DNA of 49,301 nt from Oscillospiraceae bacterium. Its GTDB lineage: Bacteria > Bacillota > Clostridia > Oscillospirales > Acutalibacteraceae. A model generated the notes under the pieces. It was not told the origin of the DNA. It made no database searches and saw nothing but the letters and a program-made list of their open reading frames with translations. Below, piece after piece: positions 3,208 to 49,301 of this stretch. Numbering within the stretch: the stretch's first letter is position 1; each line of letters starts with the position of its first letter. The stretch spans positions 1 through 49,301 of the forward strand of contig SVPF01000018.1 in NCBI GenBank assembly GCA_015066005.1, read 5' to 3'. Both the position numbers and the translations under genes were made by a program.

Positions 3208-3701
3208 AAATCCGAATAATCGGTTGCAGTGGTTCGGGTAAAACATATTTAGCAAAAAGACTATCTGAAAGATATAATATACCAAGTTTTGATTTAGATG
3301 ATATTCAATGGGATAATAGCCAAAATTCATACGGAGTCAAAATGCCCATAGAAAAACGCAACCGTATGCTGAATGATATATTACAGCAACCAAATTGGAT
3401 TATAGAGGGTGTTTATTATGCTTGGGTACAGAAAAGTTTTGAAGATGCTGATGTAATTTATGTGTTGGATATGCCAAAAAGGTTATATAGGTATCGCATT
3501 ATTAAGAGATTTATAAAAAGAAAAGTAGGTCTTGAAAAAGGTAAAAAAGAGACATTAAATTCCGTTTGCGAACTTTTGAAATGGACTAATACCTTTCAAA
3601 ACACCAATATGAAGGAAATAATCAGAATTTTAGAACCTCATAAAGAAAAAGTTGTTTATATAAAAAAGAAAGAAGAAATATATAAGATAATCACAGATTA
3701 A
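3204..3701 (+). CDS. P-loop kinase, adenylate-kinase/FlaR-like
   Basis: 165 residues, starting in ATGA overlap with the four-helix-bundle gene, so translation is probably coupled. The N-terminus is a Walker A loop, GCSGSGKT at 7-14. It is followed by FDLDDIQWD (about 31-39), a WIIEGVYYAW segment (about 70-79) and a VIYVLDMPKRLYRYR lid-like region. This is the arrangement of small P-loop kinases annotated as adenylate kinase or DNA topology modulation protein FlaR. The substrate is unknown; nucleotides, small molecules and polynucleotides are all possible. It is soluble, with no signal or membrane segments. The C-terminal half is Lys-rich. Confidence 0.8.
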   Translation: MKIRIIGCSGSGKTYLAKRLSERYNIPSFDLDDIQWDNSQNSYGVKMPIEKRNRMLNDILQQPNWIIEGVYYAWVQKSFEDADVIYVLDMPKRLYRYRIIKRFIKRKVGLEKGKKETLNSVCELLKWTNTFQNTNMKEIIRILEPHKEKVVYIKKKEEIYKIITD

Positions 3702-3817
3702 TTTAAGTAAATTCAAACGCAAATAACACAAATCAAAAATACATCAAATTTCACTTCATATTTTGCCAAAACAGTTTTTTGTACACAGCTTCACATAAAA
3801 ATGCACACAAAATTTAG

Positions 3818-3851
3818 AATACCGCCTATTCCTTTTGGAACAGGCGGTATT
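3818..3851. terminator. Bidirectional terminator
   Basis: AATACCGCCT (3818-3827) pairs with AGGCGGTATT (3842-3851), with an inner TTCC/GGAA stem and a TTTT loop. It is followed on the plus strand by TTATTTA. It lies between the convergent kinase gene and the ABC permease gene and can serve both. Confidence 0.8.
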
Positions 3852-3863
3852 TTATTTACTAAT

Positions 3864-4757
3864 CTATATTCTCTTCCTCATCGAATTCATAATAACATAT
3901 GCTGCTACCAAAACGACAATCGAGCCGCCAAGTATCAAATACATTGTCGGAACACTAACCTTATCACCAAAGAAATATACGTTACAGTCGACCGCATCTT
4001 TTAGCGAGTTAACGACCGCTGACGGTATTCCCTGCCTTTCCATTTCGGCCAAAGCGCCTTGCATTGCATGTGTTCTGACAAGTGACGTGCCGTATGTACC
4101 CGGAAGAAAGGCTATTACCTTTTGAAGCCCCGAACCAAATGAAGAAATAGGCATATATGCGCCGCATATAAAACCGTAACCCGCACTGATTATTGTACCA
4201 ACAGCAGATATTTGACCTTGAGATGAAAGAAAGAAGTTAATCACTGAAGACAACGCCGTTCCGAAAAACACAAGCAAAATTACATCAAGCAGTAAAAACA
4301 AAACATCCCCTAACGACATATACCAGCCAATGACCGCCATATAAACTAGACAAAGCGCGGTTGACGCGAAGCAAATAATTAAGGTGGAAGCCAGTGTTGC
4401 AACATAATAGCTTAAGGATAACACCGATGCTTTTACGGGTGAAATACGAAGGTCCTTTATAGTTTTGTTTGCTCTGTCCTGAACCATTAAAAAATTAGAG
4501 CAAAACGCCACGGTTATACATGAAACCGCCAGCAATGATGAAATTAGCTGACCGCCCACAAGCCCATTCATAAGCTCTTGAGACAATTTAACACCCTGAG
4601 GCATATTCATTTCAAATGAATCGCGATAAACGTTACCAAGGAAGGTTATATATAAAACGAGCAAAATTGCAGGTGTTATAAGGGAAGTAAAAAACATTCC
4701 CTTATCCTTAAAAAACAGCTTTATATTTCGCTTTATTAAAATTAAAACTGTATTCAT
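3864..4757 (-). CDS. ABC-2 type transporter permease
   Basis: 297 residues with about six hydrophobic segments: one near residues 18-40, then four clustered between about 70 and 210, and a last one near 270-292. A large outside loop lies between segments 1 and 2. This is the ABC-2 permease architecture used by drug, lipid and polysaccharide exporters. It pairs with the ATPase gene immediately upstream; ATPase stop and permease start overlap in ATGA. The protein probably dimerises in the membrane. The substrate cannot be told. The phrase QDRANKTIKDLRISPVK is typical of DrrB/YadH-like permeases. Confidence 0.88.
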   Translation of the reverse strand: MNTVLILIKRNIKLFFKDKGMFFTSLITPAILLVLYITFLGNVYRDSFEMNMPQGVKLSQELMNGLVGGQLISSLLAVSCITVAFCSNFLMVQDRANKTIKDLRISPVKASVLSLSYYVATLASTLIICFASTALCLVYMAVIGWYMSLGDVLFLLLDVILLVFFGTALSSVINFFLSSQGQISAVGTIISAGYGFICGAYMPISSFGSGLQKVIAFLPGTYGTSLVRTHAMQGALAEMERQGIPSAVVNSLKDAVDCNVYFFGDKVSVPTMYLILGGSIVVLVAAYVIMNSMRKRI

Positions 4758-6563: not shown

Positions 6564-7304
6564 TTATTCATAATCTACAACATCAACCCATGAAAGCAAA
6601 AATTCACGTTCCTCGGGCTTACCCTTTACTGACTGTGAAGCGGCGACAATAGGAAGCCATTTCTGAATATACTGACGGGCGGTGTCGCTTTTTTTACAGA
6701 AAATTTCCATATATTTTTTAGCAACGTCTTCCTTGCCGTTAAGGCAGAAAAGAAGATAAGTTCTTGCAACGTCGGCCGAAGCATTGCCTTGGGTTGCGTG
6801 TGCCCAGTCAATTATATAAATTTTGCCGTTATCAGCAATAATTACATTTGACGGATCAAAATCACCGTGGCAAACCTTATTATGCTTGGGCATACCCGCA
6901 AGGCGTGTGTGAAGCTCATATCTTGTGGTTGCATCCAAATTTGTTTCATCTATTTTACGGTTCATTTTGTCCTTAAGCTTTGTAAGCAAGGTTGATTTTT
7001 GCGAATGAATAAGCATTTGAACATCTACAAACTGTTCAAGATACTTATCAAAATTATCACTGTCCTCTGCCATAAGCTCAGCAATCGACTTGCCCTCAAT
7101 AAACTCTTCAACTATGGCCCATTTTCCGTCCACTTTTGTTATTTCAAGAATTTTAGGAATATTAAGTGCGGTTTCTTCAATTCGCGCTTGATTAAGCGCT
7201 TCGTTTAAAATTCCCGCTTTGGAATAATTTTCGTCAAACACCTTAATACATTTGTCACCGTCGCGATAAACGATTTTACCAATTCTTTTAGCAATAATTT
7301 CCAT
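6564..7304 (-). CDS. Aminoglycoside-phosphotransferase-fold kinase
   Basis: 246 residues from ATG at 7304. AAGGAG eight bases upstream favours it over the GTG at 7313. The APH/choline-kinase catalytic loop HGDFDPSN is at 146-153 (Asp148) and the metal-binding IDWAHA at 165-170 (Asp166). The N-lobe carries a glycine-poor nucleotide loop and the IVEEFIEGKS hinge. The start lies 12 bases after the adhE stop, so it is probably cotranscribed with adhE. Drug resistance is unlikely from context. Relatives phosphorylate sugars, choline-like alcohols or amino sugars, so a small-alcohol or damaged-metabolite substrate is possible, but this is inference. Confidence 0.85.
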   Translation of the reverse strand: MEIIAKRIGKIVYRDGDKCIKVFDENYSKAGILNEALNQARIEETALNIPKILEITKVDGKWAIVEEFIEGKSIAELMAEDSDNFDKYLEQFVDVQMLIHSQKSTLLTKLKDKMNRKIDETNLDATTRYELHTRLAGMPKHNKVCHGDFDPSNVIIADNGKIYIIDWAHATQGNASADVARTYLLFCLNGKEDVAKKYMEIFCKKSDTARQYIQKWLPIVAASQSVKGKPEEREFLLSWVDVVDYE

Positions 7305-7316
7305 AAAATTCACTCC

Positions 7317-9935
7317 TTAAATATCCTTGTGTTCGCCGTAATATGCGTTAAGATACATCTGCTTGATTTCACTCATTAAGGGATAACGGGGATTAGCGCC
7401 TGTGCACTGGTCGTCAAATGCCTGCTCGACCATTTCATCAAGTCGGTCAAGGAAGTCTTTTTCATCAATGCCGTAATCCTTGATGGTTTCCTTTATGCCA
7501 ACCTTTGCCTTAAGCTCGTTAATTGCTTTAATAAGATTTTCAAGCTTTTCTTCATTTGTATTGCCGCCAAGGCCAAGATGATCGGCAATTTCAGCATAAC
7601 GAGCAAGAGTATGAGGATGGTCATATTGTGAGAAGGTACCCATTTTAACGGGTGTTTCAGAAGCATTAAAGCGGATAACCTCTTCAATCATTAAAGCATT
7701 GGCAACACCGTGAGGTAGATGATGGAAAGCACCAAGCTTGTGCGCCATTGAATGACATACACCAAGGAATGCGTTTGCAAATGCCATACCTGCCATTGTT
7801 GCGGCATTTGCCATCTTTTCACGCGCTTCAATATCGGTCTGTCCGTTTTCATAAGCACGGGGTAAATATTTAAAAATATTTTTAAGGGCCTGCAAAGCAA
7901 GACCGTCGGTATAATCGGTAGCAAGCATTGCGGCATAGGCTTCAACGGCGTGGGTTACAGCGTCAATACCTGAAGCCGCGGTAAGACCTTTAGGTGCAGA
8001 CATATGAAAATCAGTATCAATAATTGCCATATTAGGTAGCAATTCATAGTCAGCCAAAGGATACTTAACACCTGTGTTTTCATCAGTGATAACCGCAAAG
8101 GGTGTAACCTCAGAACCTGTACCTGCAGATGTAGGCACAGCAATAAAGTAAGCCTTTTCACCCATTTTTGGGAAGGTGTATACACGCTTGCGAATGTCAA
8201 TAAAGCGCATTGCCATATCCATAAAGTCGGCTTCGGGATGCTCGTAAAGCACCCACATAATCTTAGCCGCATCCATTGCCGAGCCACCACCCAAAGCAAT
8301 AATGGTATCAGGCTTGAAGGCTGCCATTTGCTTAGCACCGTCACGCGCATTTTTAAGGGTCGGGTCAGGCTGAACATCAAAAAAGGTGGTGTGCGCAATA
8401 CCCATTTCATCAAGCTTGTCGGTAATAGGCTTAGTATAACCGTTTTCATAAAGGAAGGTATCGGTTACGATAAATGCACGCTTTGCGCCGCGAACAGTTC
8501 TTAATTCGTCCAGTGCAACGGGCAAGCAGCCTTTTTTAATATAAACCTTTTCAGGTGCGCGGAACCAAAGCATATTTTCCCTTCTTTCAGCAACAGTTTT
8601 AATGTTTAATAAATGCTTAACACCCACGTTATCAGACACCGAGTTACCGCCCCAAGAACCGCAACCGAGTGTGAGTGACGGTGCAAGCTTAAAGTTATAA
8701 AGGTCACCTATACCACCGTGTGATGAGGGTGTATTAACTAAAATACGGCAGGTCTTCATTCGGGCCGCAAATTCACTCAGCTTTTCACCCTCAGTAACCT
8801 CATTAAGATAAATTGAAGATGTATGACCGTAGCCGCCGTCAGCCACAAGCTGTTCAGCCTTTAAAAGCGCATCCTCAAAGCTGGTTGCTTTATACATTGC
8901 AAGCACAGGACTTAACTTTTCGTGTGCAAACTCTTCGCTGAGCTCTACGCTTTCAACCTCACCAATAAGGATTTTTGTGCTTTCAGGAACACTTACACCC
9001 GAAAGCTCAGCAATTTTAGCAGCCTTTTGACCAACAATTTTAGCATTAAGCGCGCCGTTTATAATAATCGTTTTTCTAACCTTTTCGGTTTCTTCTTCGT
9101 TTAAGAAATAGCAACCGCGTGTTGCAAATTCAGCCTTTACAGCCTCATAAATGCTTTCCATAACAATCACCGACTGTTCGGAAGCACAAATCATACCGTT
9201 ATCAAAGGTTTTTGAATGAATTATAGAGTTAACAGCCAATAAAATATCGGCGCTGTCGTCAATAATTGCAGGGGTGTTACCTGCGCCTACGCCCAATGCG
9301 GGCTTACCGCTGGAATAAGCCGCCTTAACCATACCGGGACCGCCCGTAGCCAAAATAATATCGGCTTCCTTCATAACGGTATTTGTCATTTCAAGACTCG
9401 GCACATCTATCCAATCAATAATTCCTTCAGGCGCGCCCGCCTTAACCGCAGCCTCAAGCACTAATTTTGCAGCAGCAATGGTGCTGTTTTTGGCACGCGG
9501 GTGTGGAGAAATAATAATGGCGTTTCGGGTTTTTAATGCAATAAGACATTTGAAAATTGCGGTAGATGTGGGGTTAGTAGTAGGAATAACTGCCGCAATA
9601 ACACCGATAGGCTCAGCAATTTTCTTTATACCGAAGGCCTTATCCTCTTCAATAACACCGCAGGTTTTAGTGTCCTTATAAGCGTTGTAAATATATTCTG
9701 AAGCATAGTTATTTTTAATAACCTTATCCTCAACAACGCCCATGCCCGTTTCCTCTACTGCCATTTTGGCGAGAGGAATTCGTGCTTTGTTTGCGGCAGA
9801 TGCGGCTGCTAAGAAAATTTTATCTACCTGCTCCTGCGAAAAGGTGGCAAACTTTCTTTGAGCTTCTCTTGTGCGGGCAATTGCTTGTTCAAGCTTTTCT
9901 ACACTGTCAACCAACAAATAATTTTGCGTTTCCAT
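7317..9935 (-). CDS. adhE: Bifunctional acetaldehyde-CoA / alcohol dehydrogenase AdhE
   Basis: 872 residues from ATG at 9935, set by GGAGG six bases upstream. A longer frame to 9983 has no ribosome site and would cover the Rex box. The N-terminal acetaldehyde dehydrogenase domain has catalytic Cys250 in NGMICASEQS. The C-terminal iron alcohol dehydrogenase domain has GGGSAMDAAK (549-558) and the expected iron ligands Asp658, His662, His728 and His742. It reduces acetyl-CoA to ethanol with two NADH, recycling NAD+ in fermentation. The enzyme forms spirosomes in other bacteria. Length is standard for the family. A Rex operator lies just upstream, and an APH-like kinase follows in the same transcript. 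Confidence 0.97.
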   Translation of the reverse strand: METQNYLLVDSVEKLEQAIARTREAQRKFATFSQEQVDKIFLAAASAANKARIPLAKMAVEETGMGVVEDKVIKNNYASEYIYNAYKDTKTCGVIEEDKAFGIKKIAEPIGVIAAVIPTTNPTSTAIFKCLIALKTRNAIIISPHPRAKNSTIAAAKLVLEAAVKAGAPEGIIDWIDVPSLEMTNTVMKEADIILATGGPGMVKAAYSSGKPALGVGAGNTPAIIDDSADILLAVNSIIHSKTFDNGMICASEQSVIVMESIYEAVKAEFATRGCYFLNEEETEKVRKTIIINGALNAKIVGQKAAKIAELSGVSVPESTKILIGEVESVELSEEFAHEKLSPVLAMYKATSFEDALLKAEQLVADGGYGHTSSIYLNEVTEGEKLSEFAARMKTCRILVNTPSSHGGIGDLYNFKLAPSLTLGCGSWGGNSVSDNVGVKHLLNIKTVAERRENMLWFRAPEKVYIKKGCLPVALDELRTVRGAKRAFIVTDTFLYENGYTKPITDKLDEMGIAHTTFFDVQPDPTLKNARDGAKQMAAFKPDTIIALGGGSAMDAAKIMWVLYEHPEADFMDMAMRFIDIRKRVYTFPKMGEKAYFIAVPTSAGTGSEVTPFAVITDENTGVKYPLADYELLPNMAIIDTDFHMSAPKGLTAASGIDAVTHAVEAYAAMLATDYTDGLALQALKNIFKYLPRAYENGQTDIEAREKMANAATMAGMAFANAFLGVCHSMAHKLGAFHHLPHGVANALMIEEVIRFNASETPVKMGTFSQYDHPHTLARYAEIADHLGLGGNTNEEKLENLIKAINELKAKVGIKETIKDYGIDEKDFLDRLDEMVEQAFDDQCTGANPRYPLMSEIKQMYLNAYYGEHKDI

Positions 9936-13067: not shown

Positions 13068-13340
13068 TTAAGATTTTAATGCACTATCAAGCCAAACGAA
13101 TCCAAAATCAAGCGCTTCAAACATTGTGGGTTTTGTAGTTTCCTTGACAATACGGTCCTTATCGCTTAAAGCGGTATCGCTTTTTAAAAGCTGAACCTTA
13201 ATTTTATTGGGTTCACCGTTTGCATCCTCACCCAAAATTGTAAATTTAACCACAAAGGCTTCGGCCATATCGCCGTAATAAATTTCATTTTTGCACCTTA
13301 CTAAAGGTTTTTCTTTATAAGTAATAAAATTTTCGCTCAT
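13068..13340 (-). CDS. Small conserved-looking protein of unknown function
   Basis: 90 residues from ATG at 13340, preceded by AGAAGGTG with a 5-base spacer; the longer frame to 13370 has no ribosome site. It is soluble, with no Cys clusters or signal. The middle contains KFTILGEDANGEPNKIKVQLL, a predicted beta-hairpin, and the end is a short helix, FEALDFGFVWLDSAL. I do not recognise a family. It is transcribed divergently from glyS, with a clean ribosome site and its own shared terminator, which supports a real gene. Confidence 0.7.
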   Translation of the reverse strand: MSENFITYKEKPLVRCKNEIYYGDMAEAFVVKFTILGEDANGEPNKIKVQLLKSDTALSDKDRIVKETTKPTMFEALDFGFVWLDSALKS

Positions 13341-13404
13341 AATTGCACCTTCTAAAAATCTTCTATTCATAAAGTATAAACTATATAATTAAATATGTCA
13401 AGTA

Positions 13405-13433
13405 TTGACTTTTCATAGATTTTTAGATAATAT
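13405..13433 (+). promoter_or_regulatory. Promoter of glyS
   Basis: TTGACT (13405-13410), 17 bases, TAATAT (13428-13433). The start codon is 40 bases later. There is no T-box or other leader structure. Confidence 0.6.
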
Positions 13434-13472
13434 AGTATTTGTAGAAATTTGGCTTTATCGGAGGATAAAAAA

Positions 13473-14864
13473 ATGGAAAATTCAAAGAAAAATATGGAAA
13501 CGGTCGTTACCTTAGCCAAGGGTCGCGGCTTTATATACCCCGGCAGTGAAATTTACGGCGGTTTGGCAAACTCGTGGGACTACGGCCCCTTGGGTGTAGA
13601 GCTTAAAAACAACATTAAAAAGGCCTGGTGGAAGAAGTTCGTTCAGGAATGTCCCTACAATGTTGGTCTTGACAGCGCAATTATTATGAATCCTGAAACC
13701 TGGGTTGCATCAGGTCACCTTGGCGGCTTTTCCGATCCGCTTATGGATTGTAAAAACTGCAAAACCCGTCACCGTGCTGATAAGCTTATTGAAGATTATG
13801 TTGCACAAAACGGCCTTTCTGATAATCCCGCCGCTATGAGCGACAGTGAAATGAGCGAATATATTAAGGAGCATAAAATTGGCTGCCCTGACTGTGGCTC
13901 GCACGATTTTACCGATATTCGCAAATTTAATCTTATGTTTAAAACCTTCCAGGGCGTTACTGAGGACAGCACCTCTACCCTTTACCTTCGCCCCGAAACC
14001 GCACAGGGTATTTTCGTAAACTTTAAGAACATTGCCCGTACAACACGCAAGAAGGTTCCCTTCGGTGTTGCGCAAATCGGTAAATCCTTCCGTAATGAAA
14101 TTACCCCCGGTAACTTCATTTTCCGTACTCGCGAATTTGAACAAATGGAGCTTGAGTTTTTCTGCAAGCCCGGTACCGACCTTGAATGGTTTGAATTCTG
14201 GCGCGGCTACTGCCGTGACTGGTTGTTAAATCTTGGTATGGATAAGGACAGCCTTCGCCTTAGGGATCACGATAAGGATGAGCTTTGCTTCTATTCAAAA
14301 GCCACTACCGACTTTGAATTTATGTTCCCGTTCGGTTGGGGTGAATTATGGGGTGTTGCTGACCGTACCGATTACGACCTTACCCAGCACGCCAATCATT
14401 CGGGTGAAAGTATGGAATATTTCGACCCCGAAACCAACGAAAAGTACATTCCTTATGTTATCGAACCGTCCTTGGGTGCTGACCGTGTGCTTTTGGCTTT
14501 CTTCTGCAACGCTTACGATGAGGAAACCGATGAAAAGGGCGACACACGTGTAGTTCTTCGCTTACACCCCGCCCTTGCTCCCTTTAAGGCAGCTGTTCTT
14601 CCCCTTTCTAAAAAGCTTTCTGACAAAGCAGGTGAAGTTTACACCGAGCTTTCAAAATACTTTAATATTGATTTTGATGATGCAGGCTCTATCGGCAAGC
14701 GTTATCGCCGCGAGGATGAAATCGGAACACCGATATGCATCACCTACGACTTTGATTCATTAGAGGACGGCTGTGTTACTGTTCGCGACCGTGACACAAT
14801 GGAGCAAAAGCGTATTCCTATTACCGACCTTAAGGCTTATATTGAAAAAGCTGTTGAATTTTAA
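13473..14864 (+). CDS. glyS: Glycyl-tRNA synthetase, dimeric type
   Basis: 463 residues from ATG at 13473, with GGAGG upstream; an in-frame TTG at 13449 precedes the ribosome site and is rejected. It is a class II synthetase of the single-chain (alpha2) GlyRS type. N-terminal motif 1 region is [21 protein letters not shown] zinc-ribbon-like insertion has CKNCKTRH and CPDCGSHDF. Motif 2 contains [13 protein letters not shown] and FRNEITP. A C-terminal anticodon-binding domain begins near 365 ([19 protein letters not shown]). It charges tRNA-Gly with glycine in the cytosol. Length is typical. A Na/Pi cotransporter gene follows 12 bases later, so the two probably share a transcript. Confidence 0.97.
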
Positions 14865-22446: not shown

Positions 22447-23124
22447 TTGTTTAACTTAATTTTAGAAATAATATCAGGCATATATTTTTTTGCACTGCAC
22501 GTTGTAACCAAGGGCGCATTTCCCCGACCGCTTACAGCCGAAGAGGAAACCGAGCTTTTAGAAAAAAGCCAAAACGGTGACATTGACGCCCGAAACACGC
22601 TTATTGAACACAACTTGCGGCTTGTAGCACACATTGTTAAGAAATATTACGCCACAGGTGCTGACCAGGATGATTTAATATCAATTGGCACGGTGGGACT
22701 TATTAAGGCTGTTTCAACCTTTAAAAGTGATAAAAACATTCGCCTTGCAACATATGCAGCACGATGCATTGAAAATGAAATTTTAATGTTTTTCAGAAGC
22801 CTAAAAAAGAATTCGCAGGAGGTTTTTATAAGTGACCCAATAGACACCGACGGTCAGGGTAACGCATTAACCCTTATTGATGTTATTGCCGATAAGGGTG
22901 ACATTGTTGAAGAAATTGACACAAAATTAAAGCTTCAAAAGCTGCAGCTTATAATAAACGGTGCTTTAGACGAGCGCGAGCTGGAAATTATAAAATACCG
23001 TTACGGTATTGGCGGCTATCCCGAGCTCACCCAACGCGATATTGCCAAAAAGCTTGGTATTTCACGAAGCTACGTATCCAGAATAGAAAAATCCGCCCTA
23101 GAAAAACTAAGGCGGAGGTTTTAA
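22447..23124 (+). CDS. sigK: Sporulation sigma factor SigK
   Basis: 225 residues, TTG start. The hydrophobic N-terminus (LILEIISGIYFFALHVV) resembles the SigK pro-sequence. It is followed by AFPRPLTAEEE, region 2 (LIEHNLRLVAHIVKKYY and DLISIGTVGLIKAVSTF) and region 4 (YPELTQRDIAKKLGISRSYV). SigK drives late mother-cell genes for cortex and coat. The gene is continuous, with no skin-type interruption. Expression is probably from a sporulation promoter not resolved here; the ribosome site lies in a hairpin. It shows that the organism has the genetic basis for endospores. Confidence 0.94.
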   Translation: MFNLILEIISGIYFFALHVVTKGAFPRPLTAEEETELLEKSQNGDIDARNTLIEHNLRLVAHIVKKYYATGADQDDLISIGTVGLIKAVSTFKSDKNIRLATYAARCIENEILMFFRSLKKNSQEVFISDPIDTDGQGNALTLIDVIADKGDIVEEIDTKLKLQKLQLIINGALDERELEIIKYRYGIGGYPELTQRDIAKKLGISRSYVSRIEKSALEKLRRRF

Positions 23125-43972: not shown

Positions 43973-44173
43973 TTGAAAATAATACAATGCGCTGAGGCTT
44001 GCCGCTTTCAAAGTGAAGGATATTGCTCGCTTGAAAGCTGCACAAACATAAATTCCGTAAAACACTCTTGCCCTTATTATATGCCCAAATTATCCGATGG
44101 CGGCAATGGCTTGCTTGAGATTACTAACGCCGACAAGCTCCATGCCGACAGGACAATCGGTAATTTGTTTTAA
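43973..44173 (+). CDS. Small cysteine-rich protein
   Basis: 66 residues from TTG at 43973, with AAGGAGTG upstream. The first 37 residues carry five Cys (6, 10, 18, 23, 33) in the pattern CxxxC...C...C...CPYYMP. This is a small clostridial family often misannotated as hydroxymyristoyl-ACP dehydratase. The remaining 29 residues extend into and overlap the 3' end of the convergent radA gene by 84 bases. A metal or disulfide role is likely; no function is known. Confidence 0.72.
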   Translation: MKIIQCAEACRFQSEGYCSLESCTNINSVKHSCPYYMPKLSDGGNGLLEITNADKLHADRTIGNLF

Positions 44174-45448
44174 AGAGGCTTTGGGTAAAATACATTTATT
44201 AAAGCCAAGGCGGGCGGCTTCGTTAACCCTGAATGCAGCTCTTGCAACCGACCGCACCTCGCCCGAAAGACCGATTTCACCAAAGGCAACGGTTTTTTCA
44301 TCAATGGGTACATCACGAATGCCCGATACAAGTGATAAAGCAACCGCCAAATCGGCCGCGGGCTCATCAATGCGCATACCGCCGACTATATTAAGATAAG
44401 CGTCTAAATTTGAAAAATAAAGCCCCATACGCTTTTCCAAAACCGCTAAAATAAGACTTAAGCGATTATAGTCAAAGCCGGTTGAGGTGCGCCTTGGGTT
44501 GCCAAAGCCGGTCGTAGTTACAAGCGCCTGCACCTCGGACAAAATTGGGCGTGTTCCCTCAATAACACAGGTAATACAGGTGCCCGAAACATTGGTCATA
44601 CGGCCAGTCAGCAAATGCGCCGAAGGGTTTTCAACCTCGCAAAGACCGTTGTCCCTCATTTCAAAAACACCGATTTCGTTAGTAGAGCCAAAACGGTTTT
44701 TAATTGCGCGCAAAATACGGTAGGACTGATTTCTTTCACCCTCGAAGTAAAGCACGGTATCAACAATATGCTCCATCACCTTAGGGCCCGCAATATCACC
44801 GCCCTTGTTAACATGGCCGACAATAAACACGGGAATTTCAAGGCTTTTGCCTGTACGCAAAAACATATTTGTACTTTCACGCACCTGAACAATACTGCCT
44901 GCTGATGATGAAATATCACTTATTGTCATGGTTTGAATAGAATCTATCATAACAATATCAGGTCTTGATGTATTTATATATTCACAAATGGCTTGAGCAT
45001 CGGTAGCGGTCATAATTTTTACATTATTGCCGCTGACACCCAAGCGCTCAGCACGCATTTTAATTTGTGTGGCCGATTCCTCACCCGATACATAAAGCAC
45101 TTCCATTTTGTCCTGTAGCGCCCTGCACATTTGCAAAAGAATGGTTGATTTACCAATACCGGGGTCACCGCTTAACAGCACAACCGAGCCTTTAACAATG
45201 CCGCCGCCAAGCACACGGTCAAGCTCGCGTATATCGGTTTTGAAGCGCACCTCTTTATTAGTGTCAATTTCACTTAAGGTTTGCGCAAAGGCTTGACTTT
45301 GATAGACCGCCGCGCGTGCGGGTGCCGAGTCGGTGCGGATATCCTCCTGCAAGGTGCCCCAATTATTGCAGGACGGGCATTTACCCATCCATTTTGCAGC
45401 CTCATAGCCGCATTCACTGCACACATAAACAACCTTTGTTTTTGCCAT
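44090..45448 (-). CDS. radA: DNA repair ATPase RadA/Sms
   Basis: 452 residues. The N-terminal zinc finger has CSECGYEAAKWMGKCPSCNN. Walker A is GDPGIGKST (about 91-99), and the RadA signature KNRFGSTNEIGVFEM (about 251-265) is present. The C-terminal Lon-protease-like domain has GGMRIDEPAADLAVALSLVSG. It is a branch-migration helicase in recombinational repair. It starts two bases after the stop of the cwlD fragment, whose last codons supply the AAGGAG ribosome site, so cwlD-radA was an operon before the insertion. Confidence 0.96.
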   Translation of the reverse strand: MAKTKVVYVCSECGYEAAKWMGKCPSCNNWGTLQEDIRTDSAPARAAVYQSQAFAQTLSEIDTNKEVRFKTDIRELDRVLGGGIVKGSVVLLSGDPGIGKSTILLQMCRALQDKMEVLYVSGEESATQIKMRAERLGVSGNNVKIMTATDAQAICEYINTSRPDIVMIDSIQTMTISDISSSAGSIVQVRESTNMFLRTGKSLEIPVFIVGHVNKGGDIAGPKVMEHIVDTVLYFEGERNQSYRILRAIKNRFGSTNEIGVFEMRDNGLCEVENPSAHLLTGRMTNVSGTCITCVIEGTRPILSEVQALVTTTGFGNPRRTSTGFDYNRLSLILAVLEKRMGLYFSNLDAYLNIVGGMRIDEPAADLAVALSLVSGIRDVPIDEKTVAFGEIGLSGEVRSVARAAFRVNEAARLGFNKCILPKASLKQITDCPVGMELVGVSNLKQAIAAIG

Positions 45449-45449
45449 T

Positions 45450-46013
45450 TTATGACTCCTTAAAATACTGTAAAATTCCGTCGGTTATACAAAAAGCCAA
45501 TTTTTGCTGATACGCGCTGTCCTTAAGTCGTAAAAGCTCAGCTTGGTTGCTTAAAAAACCGCATTCCACCAAAACCGCAGGCACCGTAGCGTTATAAAGC
45601 AAATATGTGCTGCTTGTGGCTTGCTTGTTAACCCGCTTATTTTCATTTTGTAAATTTTTAATTATTGATTTTTGAATTATTTCACCAAGCGCCTTTGCCG
45701 CGTCCCCATTACTGTAAAACACCTGCGACCCCTTTGCCGCCGAGGTGGTAAACTTGTTAAGATGAATACTCACAAAAACACTTTCAGGGTTTTGCTTCAT
45801 TAAATTTAAGCGATTTTCCAAATCCTCACGCTTGATAAACGAATCACCGTTACAGGTATTTGTATCGGTTTCTCTTGTCATTATAACCTTAAAGCCGTAA
45901 AGTTTCAAGAATTTAGCGGTTTGCAACGCGATTTTTAGGTTAATATCCTTTTCAACCGTACCGTCAGCCGCAACCGCACCGCCGTCCTCTCCACCGTGTG
46001 GTGAGTTAGCCAA
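45450..46013 (-). pseudogene. cwlD: 3' fragment of spore-cortex amidase gene cwlD, interrupted by an integrated element
   Basis: About 187 codons of N-acetylmuramoyl-L-alanine amidase (Amidase_3 type). It retains HGGEDGGAVAADGTVEKDI, MTRETDTNTC, FVSIHLNKF with the zinc His, and AVLVECGFLSN with the catalytic Glu. The signal peptide and the strand before the first zinc His (normally xxDxGHGG) are missing. Upstream of His the frame reads LANSP from foreign DNA and meets a stop at 46026-46028. No ribosome site precedes the possible TTG at 46013. CwlD makes muramic delta-lactam in the spore cortex and is needed for germination. The 5' part should lie at the far end of the element. Confidence 0.85.
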
Positions 46014-46030
46014 TACTATACTTTTTTAGT
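45985..46030. mobile_element. Attachment-site junction between cwlD and the element
   Basis: cwlD coding sequence is recognisable up to the CAC (His) codon at 45998-45996, and sequence to the right is unrelated. The minus-strand segment CTCACC-ACAC-GGTGGAG around the junction is an imperfect inverted repeat, as expected for a serine-recombinase crossover core. The exact core dinucleotide cannot be fixed without the other junction. Confidence 0.6.
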
Positions 46031-46070
46031 AATTCTGTATATTTTGTCGTTTTTTGGATGTAGAAAACCA

Positions 46071-47657
46071 CTAAATTTTCCACTCAATTTTGATTTCTCT
46101 CTCGCCATCCTTTTTGAGCTTTCCAATGAAGATTTTGCTTATAAATTCATCGGCGATTTCGAATGTAAGAGTATCGATTCTTCGGTACTTTTCCATAATG
46201 GATTTTGTGTCAATTGGTGTTTCGTTATCATAAAGCTTTGATAATTGTGTTTTCAAAAGTTCAATGCGTTTTTCCATTTCTTGGGTTTCTTTTTTATACT
46301 GTTCGCGAAAGATTGCAAATTCTTCCAAAGTAATTATACCATCAAGTTTATCGGTATACATTTGAGCCATTCTTGCATCATTTCGCTTTACCTTATCCTC
46401 AAGATTTTTAATTTGGGTAGTTAAAGACTTGTCTTTACCCTTTTCCTTTTTAGGCTGTTTTAAGCTGCCAATTTGCTTTTCATCATAGTATTTATCAAGC
46501 AGCTTATTTATTTCATCAACAACAATTTTTTCAAGTTCATCAAGCCGTATATGGTGTTTATTATCACATAGTCCACTTGTGGTTTTGCGGGTTCTACAAG
46601 CCAAATAATTATATCGGCCATCACGTAATTGGTAACTCATTTTCCACATTGTATTACCGCACTCACCGCAGAAAACCTTTTTTGCAAGTGAATAACAAGA
46701 ACCGTTTGGAATCTTTTGTCCTTTGCCACGAGAAAAACGAATTTCTTGTGCTTTTAAAAAGGTTTCCTTTGATATAATTGGCTCATGCATATCTTCGACA
46801 ACATCCCATTGGCTTTCAGGCTTCATGCGCCGTTTACCTGTTTTATAGTTAACAACCTCTTGCTTTCCTTGCACCAATGCACCCGTATATGCCTGTCGTC
46901 GTAAAATAGCATATATAGCCGAATCAGACCAGGTTAAACTAGGTGCCAAATTTTTCTCATAATTACGATTATAATACTTGCTTCCCAACAATTTTTTATG
47001 TACACAAGGAGGCGGAATATTTTCATCATTTAGAGCTCTCGCTATCGTAATATAACCCGACCCCTGTATATACATATCAAATATCCTTCGTACAACCGGA
47101 GCAGCGGTTTCATCAATAATTAGATGGTTTTTATTGTTTGGATCTACCAAATAACCGTAAGGGGCAAAAGAACCCACAAATTCACCATTTTTGCGCTTTG
47201 TTTTTAGAGTTGATTTTATATTATCTGATAAATCTTCCAAATACCACTCATTTATTAAACCGTTAATTTGTCGTGCTTTTTTGTTACCCTTCACGTTTGT
47301 ATCAGCATTATCAACCACACCAACAAAACGCACACCCCACTCAGGAAATTTTCCGTGAATATAGCGTTCAATCATTTCCATATCACGAGAAAAACGAGAT
47401 TGTGTTTTACATACAACTATTGTGCACTTGCCTTCCTCGCAGTCTTTCAACACACGATTCCATTCAGGACGATTAGCATCCGCACCACTGTAATCTTCAT
47501 CTGAAAAAATTCCGTTAATTTGCCAACCCCTTTCAACACAGTAGTTTATAAGCATTGTCTTTTGATTTTGGATACTCTCGCTCTCATCAGAAAAATGTTT
47601 TTTATCCCTATCCTCCGAAGAAAGACGAACATAGATATCCGCAATTTCTGTTAGCAT
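46071..47657 (-). CDS. Large serine recombinase
   Basis: 528 residues. The N-terminal resolvase domain has YVRLSSED (Ser13 the likely nucleophile), SESIQNQK, IFSDEDYSGADANRPEWNR, TQSRFSRDMEMIE and a DNADTNVKG motif. A recombinase domain (about 175-290) begins GSFAPYGYLVDPNN. A zinc-ribbon domain follows (CGECGNTMWK...CRTRKTTSGLC, about 325-365), then a long coiled coil (about 400-470). It integrates or excises the element by single-strand-exchange rotation at att sites. Placement beside a split sporulation gene parallels SpoIVCA of the skin element. The AAGGAGG ribosome site overlaps the end of the upstream small gene. Confidence 0.95.
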   Translation of the reverse strand: MLTEIADIYVRLSSEDRDKKHFSDESESIQNQKTMLINYCVERGWQINGIFSDEDYSGADANRPEWNRVLKDCEEGKCTIVVCKTQSRFSRDMEMIERYIHGKFPEWGVRFVGVVDNADTNVKGNKKARQINGLINEWYLEDLSDNIKSTLKTKRKNGEFVGSFAPYGYLVDPNNKNHLIIDETAAPVVRRIFDMYIQGSGYITIARALNDENIPPPCVHKKLLGSKYYNRNYEKNLAPSLTWSDSAIYAILRRQAYTGALVQGKQEVVNYKTGKRRMKPESQWDVVEDMHEPIISKETFLKAQEIRFSRGKGQKIPNGSCYSLAKKVFCGECGNTMWKMSYQLRDGRYNYLACRTRKTTSGLCDNKHHIRLDELEKIVVDEINKLLDKYYDEKQIGSLKQPKKEKGKDKSLTTQIKNLEDKVKRNDARMAQMYTDKLDGIITLEEFAIFREQYKKETQEMEKRIELLKTQLSKLYDNETPIDTKSIMEKYRRIDTLTFEIADEFISKIFIGKLKKDGEREIKIEWKI

Positions 47658-47659
47658 TT

Positions 47660-47851
47660 TTATAGTGTTCCTCCTTTTTTTAAGTCAGAATCACCACCAT
47701 GAAATGTCACATCTATATTATAATCGAAATTCGCTGCTTTTTCAATGTCGCGAATACAAAGACTTCTAATTGCATTATTAATTCTATCCTTGCGTTCCTC
47801 CTCACCAATGGCTGAGAACGCATTTTTTACAATATATTTATTTATTTTCAT
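47660..47851 (-). CDS. Small protein of the element
   Basis: 63 residues, ATG with GGGAGG upstream. It is helical and charged (NAFSAIGEEERKDRINNAIRS), ending VTFHGGDSDLKKGGTL, with no known motif. The stop is two bases before the recombinase start, and the recombinase ribosome site lies in its last codons, so translation is coupled. It could be a recombination directionality factor or an accessory protein by position, but sequence gives no direct support. Confidence 0.7.
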   Translation of the reverse strand: MKINKYIVKNAFSAIGEEERKDRINNAIRSLCIRDIEKAANFDYNIDVTFHGGDSDLKKGGTL

Positions 47852-47896
47852 ATCATACGCCCTCCCAATAATAATTTACTCACATAATATTTATGC

Positions 47897-48391
47897 TCAT
47901 TTTAATGTTTTAATGTTATTTGTATTCTTTGTACTTGAATTCTTATTTTTTAAATTCGAATAGTTCATATAACGATATTTACGATTATCATATTCACTTG
48001 ATCGATAAAATGCTTGTGTGACATAGTCATAAATGCAAAGCATTGTTCCAACCTCAAACTCTTCTTGAATAAGAACATCCTTTACCAACACATCAATGTC
48101 CAGAGGATGCTTCTCCTTCCATTTGATATAAAACGTTTTCTCTTTATTAGAATCATAATAAATGTTATAATCTATCGTCTTATCAGGATACAAGAACTTA
48201 AACACGGTCACAAAAAACTCTTCGGCTCTATTGTTGTTAACGTCTTGAAGATTAAATAGGTCGAACATACGTATATTTAGGACCTCATCAAGCGTTCTAA
48301 AACCTAAATCATAAAAAATTTGACTGCTGTTTTCTTCGTCAACTTTCATCCATTCCTCAGAAGTAAATTTTATTTTAAAATATTCTTTCAT
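47897..48391 (-). CDS. Element protein of unknown function
   Basis: 164 residues, ATG with AAAGGAG upstream. It is acidic and aromatic-rich, with TSEEWMKVDEENSSQIFYDL, RMFDLFNLQDVNNN and KWKEKHPLDIDVLVKDV, and ends in a low-complexity Asn/Lys/Ser/Thr tail (about 145-164). No membrane segment or recognised domain is seen. Very AT-rich codon use compared with the flanking chromosome agrees with foreign origin. Confidence 0.7.
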   Translation of the reverse strand: MKEYFKIKFTSEEWMKVDEENSSQIFYDLGFRTLDEVLNIRMFDLFNLQDVNNNRAEEFFVTVFKFLYPDKTIDYNIYYDSNKEKTFYIKWKEKHPLDIDVLVKDVLIQEEFEVGTMLCIYDYVTQAFYRSSEYDNRKYRYMNYSNLKNKNSSTKNTNNIKTLK

Positions 48392-48466
48392 AGTTTTTAG
48401 CTCCTTTATGTTTTTACCTCACACTAATCAACTGGGAATAAAACTCCCCAAATTACGAAATACATT

Positions 48467-49030
48467 TCAATTATCAATATATTTTTTTAGTTTTTTTAGT
48501 ATCATTTCTCTCCTGGAATATACTGTAGTTGACGCGATTTTATATTTCCTAGAAAATTCAGCAACAGTTATTGGTTGTTCATTTAAATATAATTGCTGTA
48601 TAAGCATTTTTTCTTCCCTAGAAAGAGTTTGTAAACCTTTATGTAACGCAATAATAATAATTTTTTCCATTACTTCGTTTTCTATATTAATTTCATAGTC
48701 CTCTATTAGTTCTTCACCGCTTAAATCATCTTCTGTATCTTGCTGCTCATTATATGAGAAAACTGTATATCCCATCTCTTTTTCTGTTTCCTTGAGATAA
48801 TCGTGTGAATCTTTTTCAGAGCGCCATAGTTTTGCCATCTCTTCTCCACATTCCGCAATAACAATACATTCATCAGTTGAACAAGCGTCAATTTGACCAA
48901 AATTCTTTCTTCGCCTTTTTCCTTCATCAGTTTTCATAAACATTGCAAATTCATACGAGTTCATTTCAATCCAGTTACCTTCTACGGCGGGTTTATCAAC
49001 ATCTTTTTTAACCAAATAAAATTTTTTCAT
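48467..49030 (-). CDS. Sigma-70 region-4-like regulator of the element
   Basis: 187 residues from ATG at 49030, with AAGGAG upstream. The first 110 residues are of unknown fold (MKKFYLVKKDVDKPAVEGNW, a CSTDECIVIAEC cluster). The C-terminal third is a sigma region 4-like HTH: LQTLSREEKMLIQQLYLNEQ, then VAEFSRKYKIASTTVYSRRE. Proteins with this design occur in clostridial conjugative and mobilizable elements next to the recombinase and probably control element genes. Confidence 0.78.
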   Translation of the reverse strand: MKKFYLVKKDVDKPAVEGNWIEMNSYEFAMFMKTDEGKRRRKNFGQIDACSTDECIVIAECGEEMAKLWRSEKDSHDYLKETEKEMGYTVFSYNEQQDTEDDLSGEELIEDYEINIENEVMEKIIIIALHKGLQTLSREEKMLIQQLYLNEQPITVAEFSRKYKIASTTVYSRREMILKKLKKYIDN

Positions 49031-49123
49031 TTTTATAATCTCCTTAAAATTGATTTTTGAAATTGTTTTAGTTATCAAAAACCGGAGATTACGGATATTT
49101 AGCGATATAACTTTCCCATTTAA

Positions 49124-49168
49124 ACAAAAAAATTGCTCCCTTCAGATTTAGCTGCCGGAAGCAATTTT
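49124..49168 (-). terminator. Minus-strand terminator in the element
   Basis: AAAATTGCT (49129-49137) pairs with AGCAATTTT (49160-49168), with partial inner pairing. Seven T follow on the minus strand. It lies upstream of the sigma-like gene and ends a transcript coming from beyond the window. Confidence 0.7.
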
Positions 49169-49195
49169 CTTTTAAGCATTTTTCTTACCGAAAAC

Positions 49196-49253
49196 AAAAA
49201 AGCCACCGGCAAGATAGACTGAGCCTATAAACTCAATCAATCTTGTCGGCGGC
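49196..49253 (-). terminator. Second minus-strand terminator
   Basis: GCCACCGGCAAGAT (49202-49215) pairs with ATCTTGTCGGCGGC (49240-49253), including two non-Watson-Crick positions, with an inner TGAG/CTCA stem. Six T (A-run 49196-49201) follow on the minus strand. It terminates an element gene outside the window. I see no gene between it and the window end. Confidence 0.85.
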
Positions 49254-49301
49254 CTCTCATGTCTGCATAAAGCAAGTCTGGTTTAACCAACCGAAGTGTT
49301 C

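Follow-up and report, generated by a model that had tools for sequence, protein, structure and literature searches.

Serine-recombinase elements inserted at one codon of cwlD in uncultured gut Clostridia: a probable new target for skin-like elements

Known split sporulation genes and the cwlD locus

The sporulation genes listed in the cited accounts as split by intervening elements are sigK, spsM, spoVFB, spoVR, gerE and yabG (PMC10747680, PMC4191935). Here we describe a comparable situation in cwlD, the gene of a spore-cortex amidase. The DNA analysed is a stretch of 49,301 nucleotides (the window), which constitutes the entire contig C13 of the source genome, an Oscillospiraceae bacterium (assembly GCA_015066005.1, here G000; 53 contigs, 88% complete). 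The contig ends, at position 49301, inside an element that carries a large serine recombinase and interrupts cwlD. A split cwlD did not turn up in the literature searched, which covered few subscription journals and preprints. Comparison with related genomes leads us to conclude that this mobile serine-recombinase element is probably, at about two chances in three, one of the skin-like elements that interrupt sporulation genes, cwlD being a new target. As judged from sequence, it has the anatomy of such elements: co-directional halves of a sporulation gene, a recombinase by the junction, an excision that would restore the reading frame, and a host endowed with sporulation genes. The marks of large-serine-recombinase systems are likewise present, namely the three domains of the enzyme and an attP site that is palindromic about a central dinucleotide, with unrelated arms in attB.

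One parallel is the skin element of sigK (with the recombinases SpoIVCA in Bacillus subtilis and CD1231 in Clostridium difficile), in which a large serine recombinase likewise sits at the end of an element splitting a mother-cell sporulation gene. The likeness extends to the exact rejoining of the flanks, deduced from sequence in our case, and to a small protein serving as directionality factor, described as CD1234 in that account (PMC5025042) and represented by a candidate here. The differences are the target, sigK as opposed to cwlD, the position of the candidate factor directly before the recombinase, and an excision that is, in our case, predicted. The window recombinase shares 23% identity with the enzyme of an element that splits sigK in the sister genome G052 (the protein compared is that of G052, not SpoIVCA). 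Its closest relative of solved structure is SprA (YokA) of SPbeta (E = 4e-16); SprA and SprB are described as excising SPbeta in the mother cell and thereby rebuilding spsM (PMC4191935). SPbeta, however, is a prophage targeting spsM, whereas the present target is cwlD and a Pfam scan of 10 element proteins (nine from the related genome G059, one from G000) revealed no phage structural family, tyrosine-integrase domains aside. The gin element in gerE of B. cereus, with GirC and GirX, is likewise described as a non-phage element in a sporulation gene that carries a serine recombinase and a small factor (PMC5595907); it differs in having three serine recombinases and a 9-bp core, as against the one serine recombinase found at the cwlD junction. 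Recombinase-bearing elements also split yabG of C. botulinum (yin), spoVFB (vfbin) and spoVR (vrin) (PMC10747680, PMC4191935). Apart from the different targets, yin is reported, in the account cited, from one strain only (PMC10747680), whereas the cwlD family recurs across species. Finally, the best NCBIfam model for the window recombinase is XisF, the developmental excision recombinase of the fdxN element of Anabaena, which acts on another gene in another organism; the score of 113.7 bits is far under the cut-off of 375, so the window protein is not a member of that family.

The two junctions and the crossover point

The split gene, its neighbour and the recombinase are arranged in the window as follows:

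44090..45448, minus strand: radA (TIGR00416, 590 bits, cut-off 403), the chromosomal neighbour downstream of cwlD
45450..45998, minus strand: cwlD 3' part, starting with the first zinc-binding His codon and running to the stop (Amidase_3, 156.9 bits)
45997..45998, minus strand: putative crossover dinucleotide CA, positions 1 and 2 of the His codon (from the G048 junctions and the centre of the attP palindrome)
45999..46024, minus strand: element arm of attR (AAAGTATAGTATTGGCTAACTCACCA), with a similar arm at nine other split cwlD 3' parts
46071..47657, minus strand: large serine recombinase of 528 amino acids, ending 72 bases upstream of the cwlD 3' part

A preliminary description of this DNA had recognized a cwlD–radA pair, with cwlD starting at His-Gly-Gly (HGG) and a large serine recombinase beside the junction, and all three statements hold. 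On the minus strand radA directly adjoins the cwlD 3' part in head-to-tail order, and it is also the neighbour of the intact cwlD of L036, a public contig of G052. Upstream of HGG there is no cwlD homology: the window frame reads KSIVLANSP before HGGEDGG, where the closest intact relatives have VIIDAG. The recombinase contains the Resolvase, Recombinase and Zn_ribbon_recom domains, all above cut-off, and matches the integrase family PHROG 95 (344 bits), besides a weak match to a tape-measure PHROG (E = 0.0023). The top NCBIfam model for the cwlD 3' part is spore_cwlD (TIGR02883), at 185.9 bits and thus under the curated cut-off of 221.55; the intact CwlD of L036 likewise stays under it (190.8), with TIGR02883 still its best model. 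The His of HGG, a metal ligand in Amidase_3 enzymes, is invariant in all 53 CwlD rows compared.

The preliminary description also predicted that the missing 5' part of cwlD would lie at the other junction. A search of nine genomes for the DAGHG coding pattern found a single site in G000, at C53:2935-2948 on the minus strand, and this is the cwlD 5' half. At C53:2939 (minus) it runs ...VSHISPEKTVIIDAGHGG, followed by LGNTINRVEKLP and a stop, and the protein ends in ...VIIDAGHGG. The 5' half comprises the hydrophobic N-terminal segment up to DAG and the 3' half extends from His-Gly-Gly to the stop, the same core being present on both. Beyond the 5' half, C53 carries two host genes, identified by eye as encoding an ATPase and a short-chain dehydrogenase, which also occur upstream of the intact cwlD in L036, with one extra gene between; most likely, therefore, C53 and C13 are the two sides of a single ancestral locus. 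At its element end, C53 holds a HipA-like gene, ParA and a ParB-like open reading frame (ORF; the last by eye). A second intact cwlD, which the earlier description would have counted against an interrupted gene, was not found in G000, where the next match (E = 2e-5) falls within a 685-residue frame.

Both halves and the whole element, with the halves co-directional, lie on a single contig in four other genomes, the lengths between the two CA dinucleotides being 19,435 bases in G059, 30,422 in G019, 7,657 in G048 and 45,169 in G007. In G064 and G150 the halves are on two contigs, as in G000. Joining the flanks at CA yields a single open CwlD frame, 243–309 codons from stop to stop, in all seven genomes tried. 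These data bear on the suspicion that unrelated DNA was joined to cwlD at a contig end, by chance or in a chimeric assembly, to which the end of the window contig, 3.3 kb into the element and within a repeat, lends some colour. The same junction, however, recurs in independent assemblies of several species, the four contigs just mentioned contain both junctions, and G000 has the matching attL, so that an artefact has a negligible chance of being the explanation and is refuted for the family as a whole.

The attP site deduced from the two element ends is complementary about CA at 15–19 of 25 positions in each of the seven elements (a set in which the attP sites of G059 and G064 are nearly identical), compared with only 3–10 of 25 at 12 shifted neighbouring centres; the empty host site (attB) reaches 2–7 of 25 about CA. 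For G000, the window attR arm and the attL arm of C53 can pair at 19 of 25 positions. In G048, attL (CACGAA) and attR (CATGGT) part directly after CA. Because the G048 junctions part there and the attP palindrome is centred on the same dinucleotide, the sequences place the crossover at positions one and two of the first zinc-binding His codon.

Since CA is kept at both junctions, the His codon is retained in the 3' part, and an in-frame TTG precedes HGG. One might thus imagine that the 3' part alone, consisting of this codon and the rest of the catalytic domain, is expressed from a start codon of the element as a working product. Such a protein would be without the hydrophobic N-terminal segment of intact relatives (identified by eye) and without the strand before HGG, and the sequence preceding HGG is att sequence of the element, which varies between elements; we therefore consider this idea very improbable.

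The element is integrated at the codon of the first zinc-binding His, and recombination between attL and attR at CA would restore cwlD exactly while releasing a circle with the palindromic attP. If the element is skin-like, excision would take place in the mother cell, after which CwlD would be made and the spore cortex would gain its muramic-lactam. The forespore chromosome would retain the element and hand it on, and cwlD, dispensable to vegetative cells, would serve the element as a safe integration site.

Distribution and mobility of the elements

A cwlD match (E ≤ 1e-20) was obtained in 50 of the 61 genomes of the genus searched, and inspection showed 41 of these to be intact on the N-terminal side and eight to be split at HGG (G000, G059, G036, G003, G007, G017, G048 and G019); the remaining one, in G050, starts at a contig edge and was left unclassed. 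Close relatives carry an intact cwlD at the same chromosomal place, as the preliminary description had anticipated. The attL motif was found in seven of 70 genus genomes (G000, G059, G064, G037, G054, G019 and G004), nine of the 70 having at first been searched for attL only. The 5' half of G054 ends eight residues on, at the contig end, and the attL of G019, with three mismatches to the motif, is a real junction. Overall, cwlD is split in 11 of the 70 genus genomes; it is split as well in G061 and G062, recognized through the public contigs SVPL01000011.1 and JAGARD010000047.1 and counted in addition. A recombinase match accompanies nine of the ten split 3' parts examined, being cut by the contig end in G003, G017 and G061.

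In a family-wide sample of 398 genomes (six of them from the genus), the attL motif occurs in three besides G000, within a cwlD 5' half in G351 and G386 and next to non-cwlD DNA in G251; the three yielded no cwlD 3' half at E ≤ 1e-15. In G251 (L187, G251:C78:25001-36608) the attL arm meets the non-cwlD DNA at about 10367, and some 120 bases into the element side there is an ORF that by eye resembles a tyrosine recombinase; this may be a secondary site, a rearrangement or a chimera. G061 possesses two 5' halves and one 3' half. Each 5' half (L151 and L152, that is, C71 and C81) has attL, with element ends of different types (LTNTID and LTNTIKV), as might result from two mixed strains or from two genes. 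In G004 (L143, G004:C15:129000-148000), a repeated region comprises an intact cwlD and a second 5' half that ends in attL (3428-4144 and about 14608), with other genes between them; its appearance is that of an element in decay next to a gene that has been restored.

We mapped the split state on a tree of 53 CwlD 3' parts (48 of the 50 genus rows, leaving aside G014 and G050, together with G061, G062, L054, L056 and L057; G064 and G150 are absent, and the bootstrap had not settled). The 10 split rows require 10 changes, of which well-supported branches enforce at least seven; none of 500 shuffles takes more changes, and the split rows show no clustering. The recombinases of G059, G061 and G062 are 96–97% identical, whereas the CwlD of G059 is only 53–54% identical to those of the other two, and the element must therefore be mobile. 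Judging from these sequences, it belongs to a mobile family repeatedly inserted at this His codon and is not a fixed switch of one lineage. Of the skin-type element envisaged in the preliminary description, the anatomy stands, including flanks that restore the frame exactly when joined.

The patchy spread and the near-identity of recombinases in hosts with divergent CwlD are also what would be expected of an ordinary integrative element that merely has the conserved His-Gly-Gly coding motif as its attB. Such an element would be excised occasionally, without developmental control, and its carriers would make spores that germinate poorly. Its variable cargo would fit as well. We regard this explanation as unlikely, although it deserves serious consideration. 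It sits less easily with the occurrence of two recombinase clades at the same CA of a sporulation gene. The recombinases of the four complete elements are 70–75% identical to each other, and the only other recombinase past E = 1e-150 in the 398 family genomes (at most three candidates per genome were scored) is that of G150, a member of another genus, at 47% identity. It adjoins the split cwlD 5' half, on contig C79 (L199), and points at it, that is, it occupies the opposite end compared with the main family; the 3' half is on contig C63 (L200). The attP of G150 is unlike the others in sequence, yet palindromic about the same CA. Eight proteins of this element were scanned, and its genes include those for a DNA methyltransferase and an anaerobic ribonucleotide reductase of phage type.

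As to the cargo of the main family, a HipA-like gene (L142:1720-2772 minus, L156:2128-3159, L149:9359-10480 and others), 88–100% identical over a 183-residue query, is present in nine genomes (10 loci, G019 being represented twice), with partial matches of 93% in two further loci; the 23 loci searched include several whose sequence does not reach this part. All four complete main-family elements have it. It lies near attL in G000, G059, G064, G351, G061 and G004, between the recombinase and attR in G048, and some kilobases before the recombinase in G007. The G059 element further encodes a caspase-like peptidase, an IrrE-like protease, Hsp70, an AAA protein and also a tyrosine recombinase, and that of G048 metabolic-looking enzymes (by eye). 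Apart from the weak tape-measure match of the recombinase, a PHROG scan of seven element proteins returned only integration-type and unknown families. Near-identical DNA of the window was absent from the phage records, and viral contigs contained no relatives of the recombinase and one amidase 32% identical to CwlD; recombinase matches in phage and plasmid records are all below 60% identity.

Control of excision and use of cwlD

Upstream of the recombinase, the window contains the following:

47660..47851, minus strand: small ORF of 63 amino acids, directly before the recombinase; candidate recombination directionality factor
47886..47917, minus strand: promoter-like box AACA-N18-CATAAA before the small ORF (from an alignment of seven loci)
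47897..48391, minus strand: element ORF of 164 amino acids, with neither a Pfam nor a PHROG match
48467..49078, minus strand: element ORF of 203 amino acids, with a match to PHROG 13787 (unknown function, 34.7 bits) and, weakly and under the cut-off, to sigma-70 region 4 (TIGR02937, 27.4 bits)
49033..49301, no strand: contig end, the last 269 bases being a 98% repeat of the contig end C14:45223-45492

The repeat shared with the end of C14 is probably the cause of the assembly break at 49301. Near that repeat-bearing end, C14 (L186, G000:C14:30001-45492) carries at 13170-14180 a distant serine recombinase, 25% identical, perhaps marking a related element elsewhere in G000.

Homologues of the small ORF occupy the equivalent place in G059, G062, G007, G048 and G019 and beside the recombinase remnant of G036; they are 60–69 amino acids long, with isoelectric points of 4.8–7.9 in six. 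Their size is in the range of known directionality factors such as CD1234 of C. difficile (72 amino acids; PMC5025042) and GirX (42 amino acids; PMC5595907), as given in these accounts, and the small ORF may be a factor of this kind. An AACA-N18-CATAA block precedes it in all seven readable loci, in the strict form in six, G019 deviating with GACA and AATAA. The block stands ahead of the ribosome-binding region, the distance from CATA to the start codon being 34–45 bases, and a relaxed form of the pattern was met 15 times in the 368 kb of strand read, a count to which the true boxes and one overlap contribute. The sequence of the box looks like a mother-cell promoter. A CATA −10 element is also sigma-E-like, and AACA could be a SpoIIID-type site. 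The sigma-K promoters of B. subtilis are described as having a gap of 14–16 between a 5-base and a 10-base box, and cwlD of that species as sigma-E-controlled and repressed by SpoIIID (PMC517825). Before the intact cwlD genes we found ATA-N16-CATA in 12 of 42 loci (a few genomes counted twice), compared with 1.7 expected; this box is unlike that of the small ORF. Conservation of a promoter-like box before the small ORF speaks for developmental control and against an ordinary integrative element, although its promoter class is unproven.

The same holds for the state of the gene itself. None of the 50 genus matches has an internal stop, and purifying selection acts on the split genes compared, the NG86 omega values for the 3' parts alone being 0.059–0.137 in eight split/intact pairs (six split genomes) and 0.047–0.124 in eight intact/intact pairs (a ninth gave no value). 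End branches of split genes with a resolved sister are no longer than those of the sister, for example 0.033 in G000 and 0.039 in G052, 0.11 in G003 and 0.13 in G022, 0.055 in G059 and 0.2 in G010. The low omega and the open frames are compatible with continued use of cwlD; they are not proof of it, because the insertions may be recent.

With respect to gene content, Spo0A_C is above cut-off in all 13 genomes and SpoIVA in 13 of 17, G000 included in both cases; for SpoIVA, G062 has partial matches below cut-off and G064, G037 and G061 have none. The PdaA model TIGR02884 gives a match below cut-off in 17 of 17 genomes, but a control also matches in 10 of 14, so that it has no discriminating power for the lactam pathway. 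The spore sigma K model is above cut-off in two of 13 genomes (the best G000 score is 291.8, against a cut-off of 298.65), the control matching in 11 of 14. The sigma-K-like gene of G000 (window 22453-23121) is whole. In the sister G052, with cwlD intact, the corresponding gene is split between L202 (C16) 7200-7532 and L203 (C2:10001-28000) 9323-9676, the 3' half lying directly after a serine recombinase (621-codon open frame); by its sequence this is a skin-type element.

Several observations weigh against a skin-like role of the cwlD element. The split genes are scattered among intact relatives, so the insertions may be young, in which case the low omega and the open halves are poor evidence of lasting function. 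Long end branches are seen in two split rows that lack a resolved sister (0.45 in G017 and 0.36 in G048, against a median of 0.17). In G000 the two halves are on separate contigs, and the CwlD, spore_pdaA and spore_sigmaK models all score under their curated cut-offs. G036 keeps a split cwlD with the recombinase reduced to a remnant, as an ordinary integrative element might leave it; excision there would therefore need help or is lost. G004 combines an intact cwlD with an additional, attL-bearing 5' half, and the 19 kb read there gave no recombinase match. At the thresholds used, no family was found for the small ORF or its G059 homologue, the one Pfam match being far below cut-off. Neither the exact main-type attP nor the attL motif was found in viral contigs, and no excision product was observed.

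A more far-reaching version of the skin-like reading, to which we give rather little credence, is that the active-site codon of cwlD is a docking site common to distantly related elements that hold germination hostage, the element thereby selecting for its own machinery, with the HipA-like protein, whose first 183 residues are 88–100% identical between elements with recombinases of 70–80% identity, involved in that control. If so, CwlD would be rebuilt only by a mother cell with a working recombinase, and loss of the excision system with the element kept would leave spores unable to germinate.

As a target of skin-like elements, cwlD would add a germination-enabling cortex enzyme to the split sporulation genes named above. 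It would also add a new host group, uncultured gut Clostridia, where enough genomes carry the element for comparative study. The family also yields recombinases for which the attP and attB sites have been deduced. With about ten natural repeats of one insertion, and both filled and empty sites available, it provides data on whether such an element is a selfish passenger or a useful switch.

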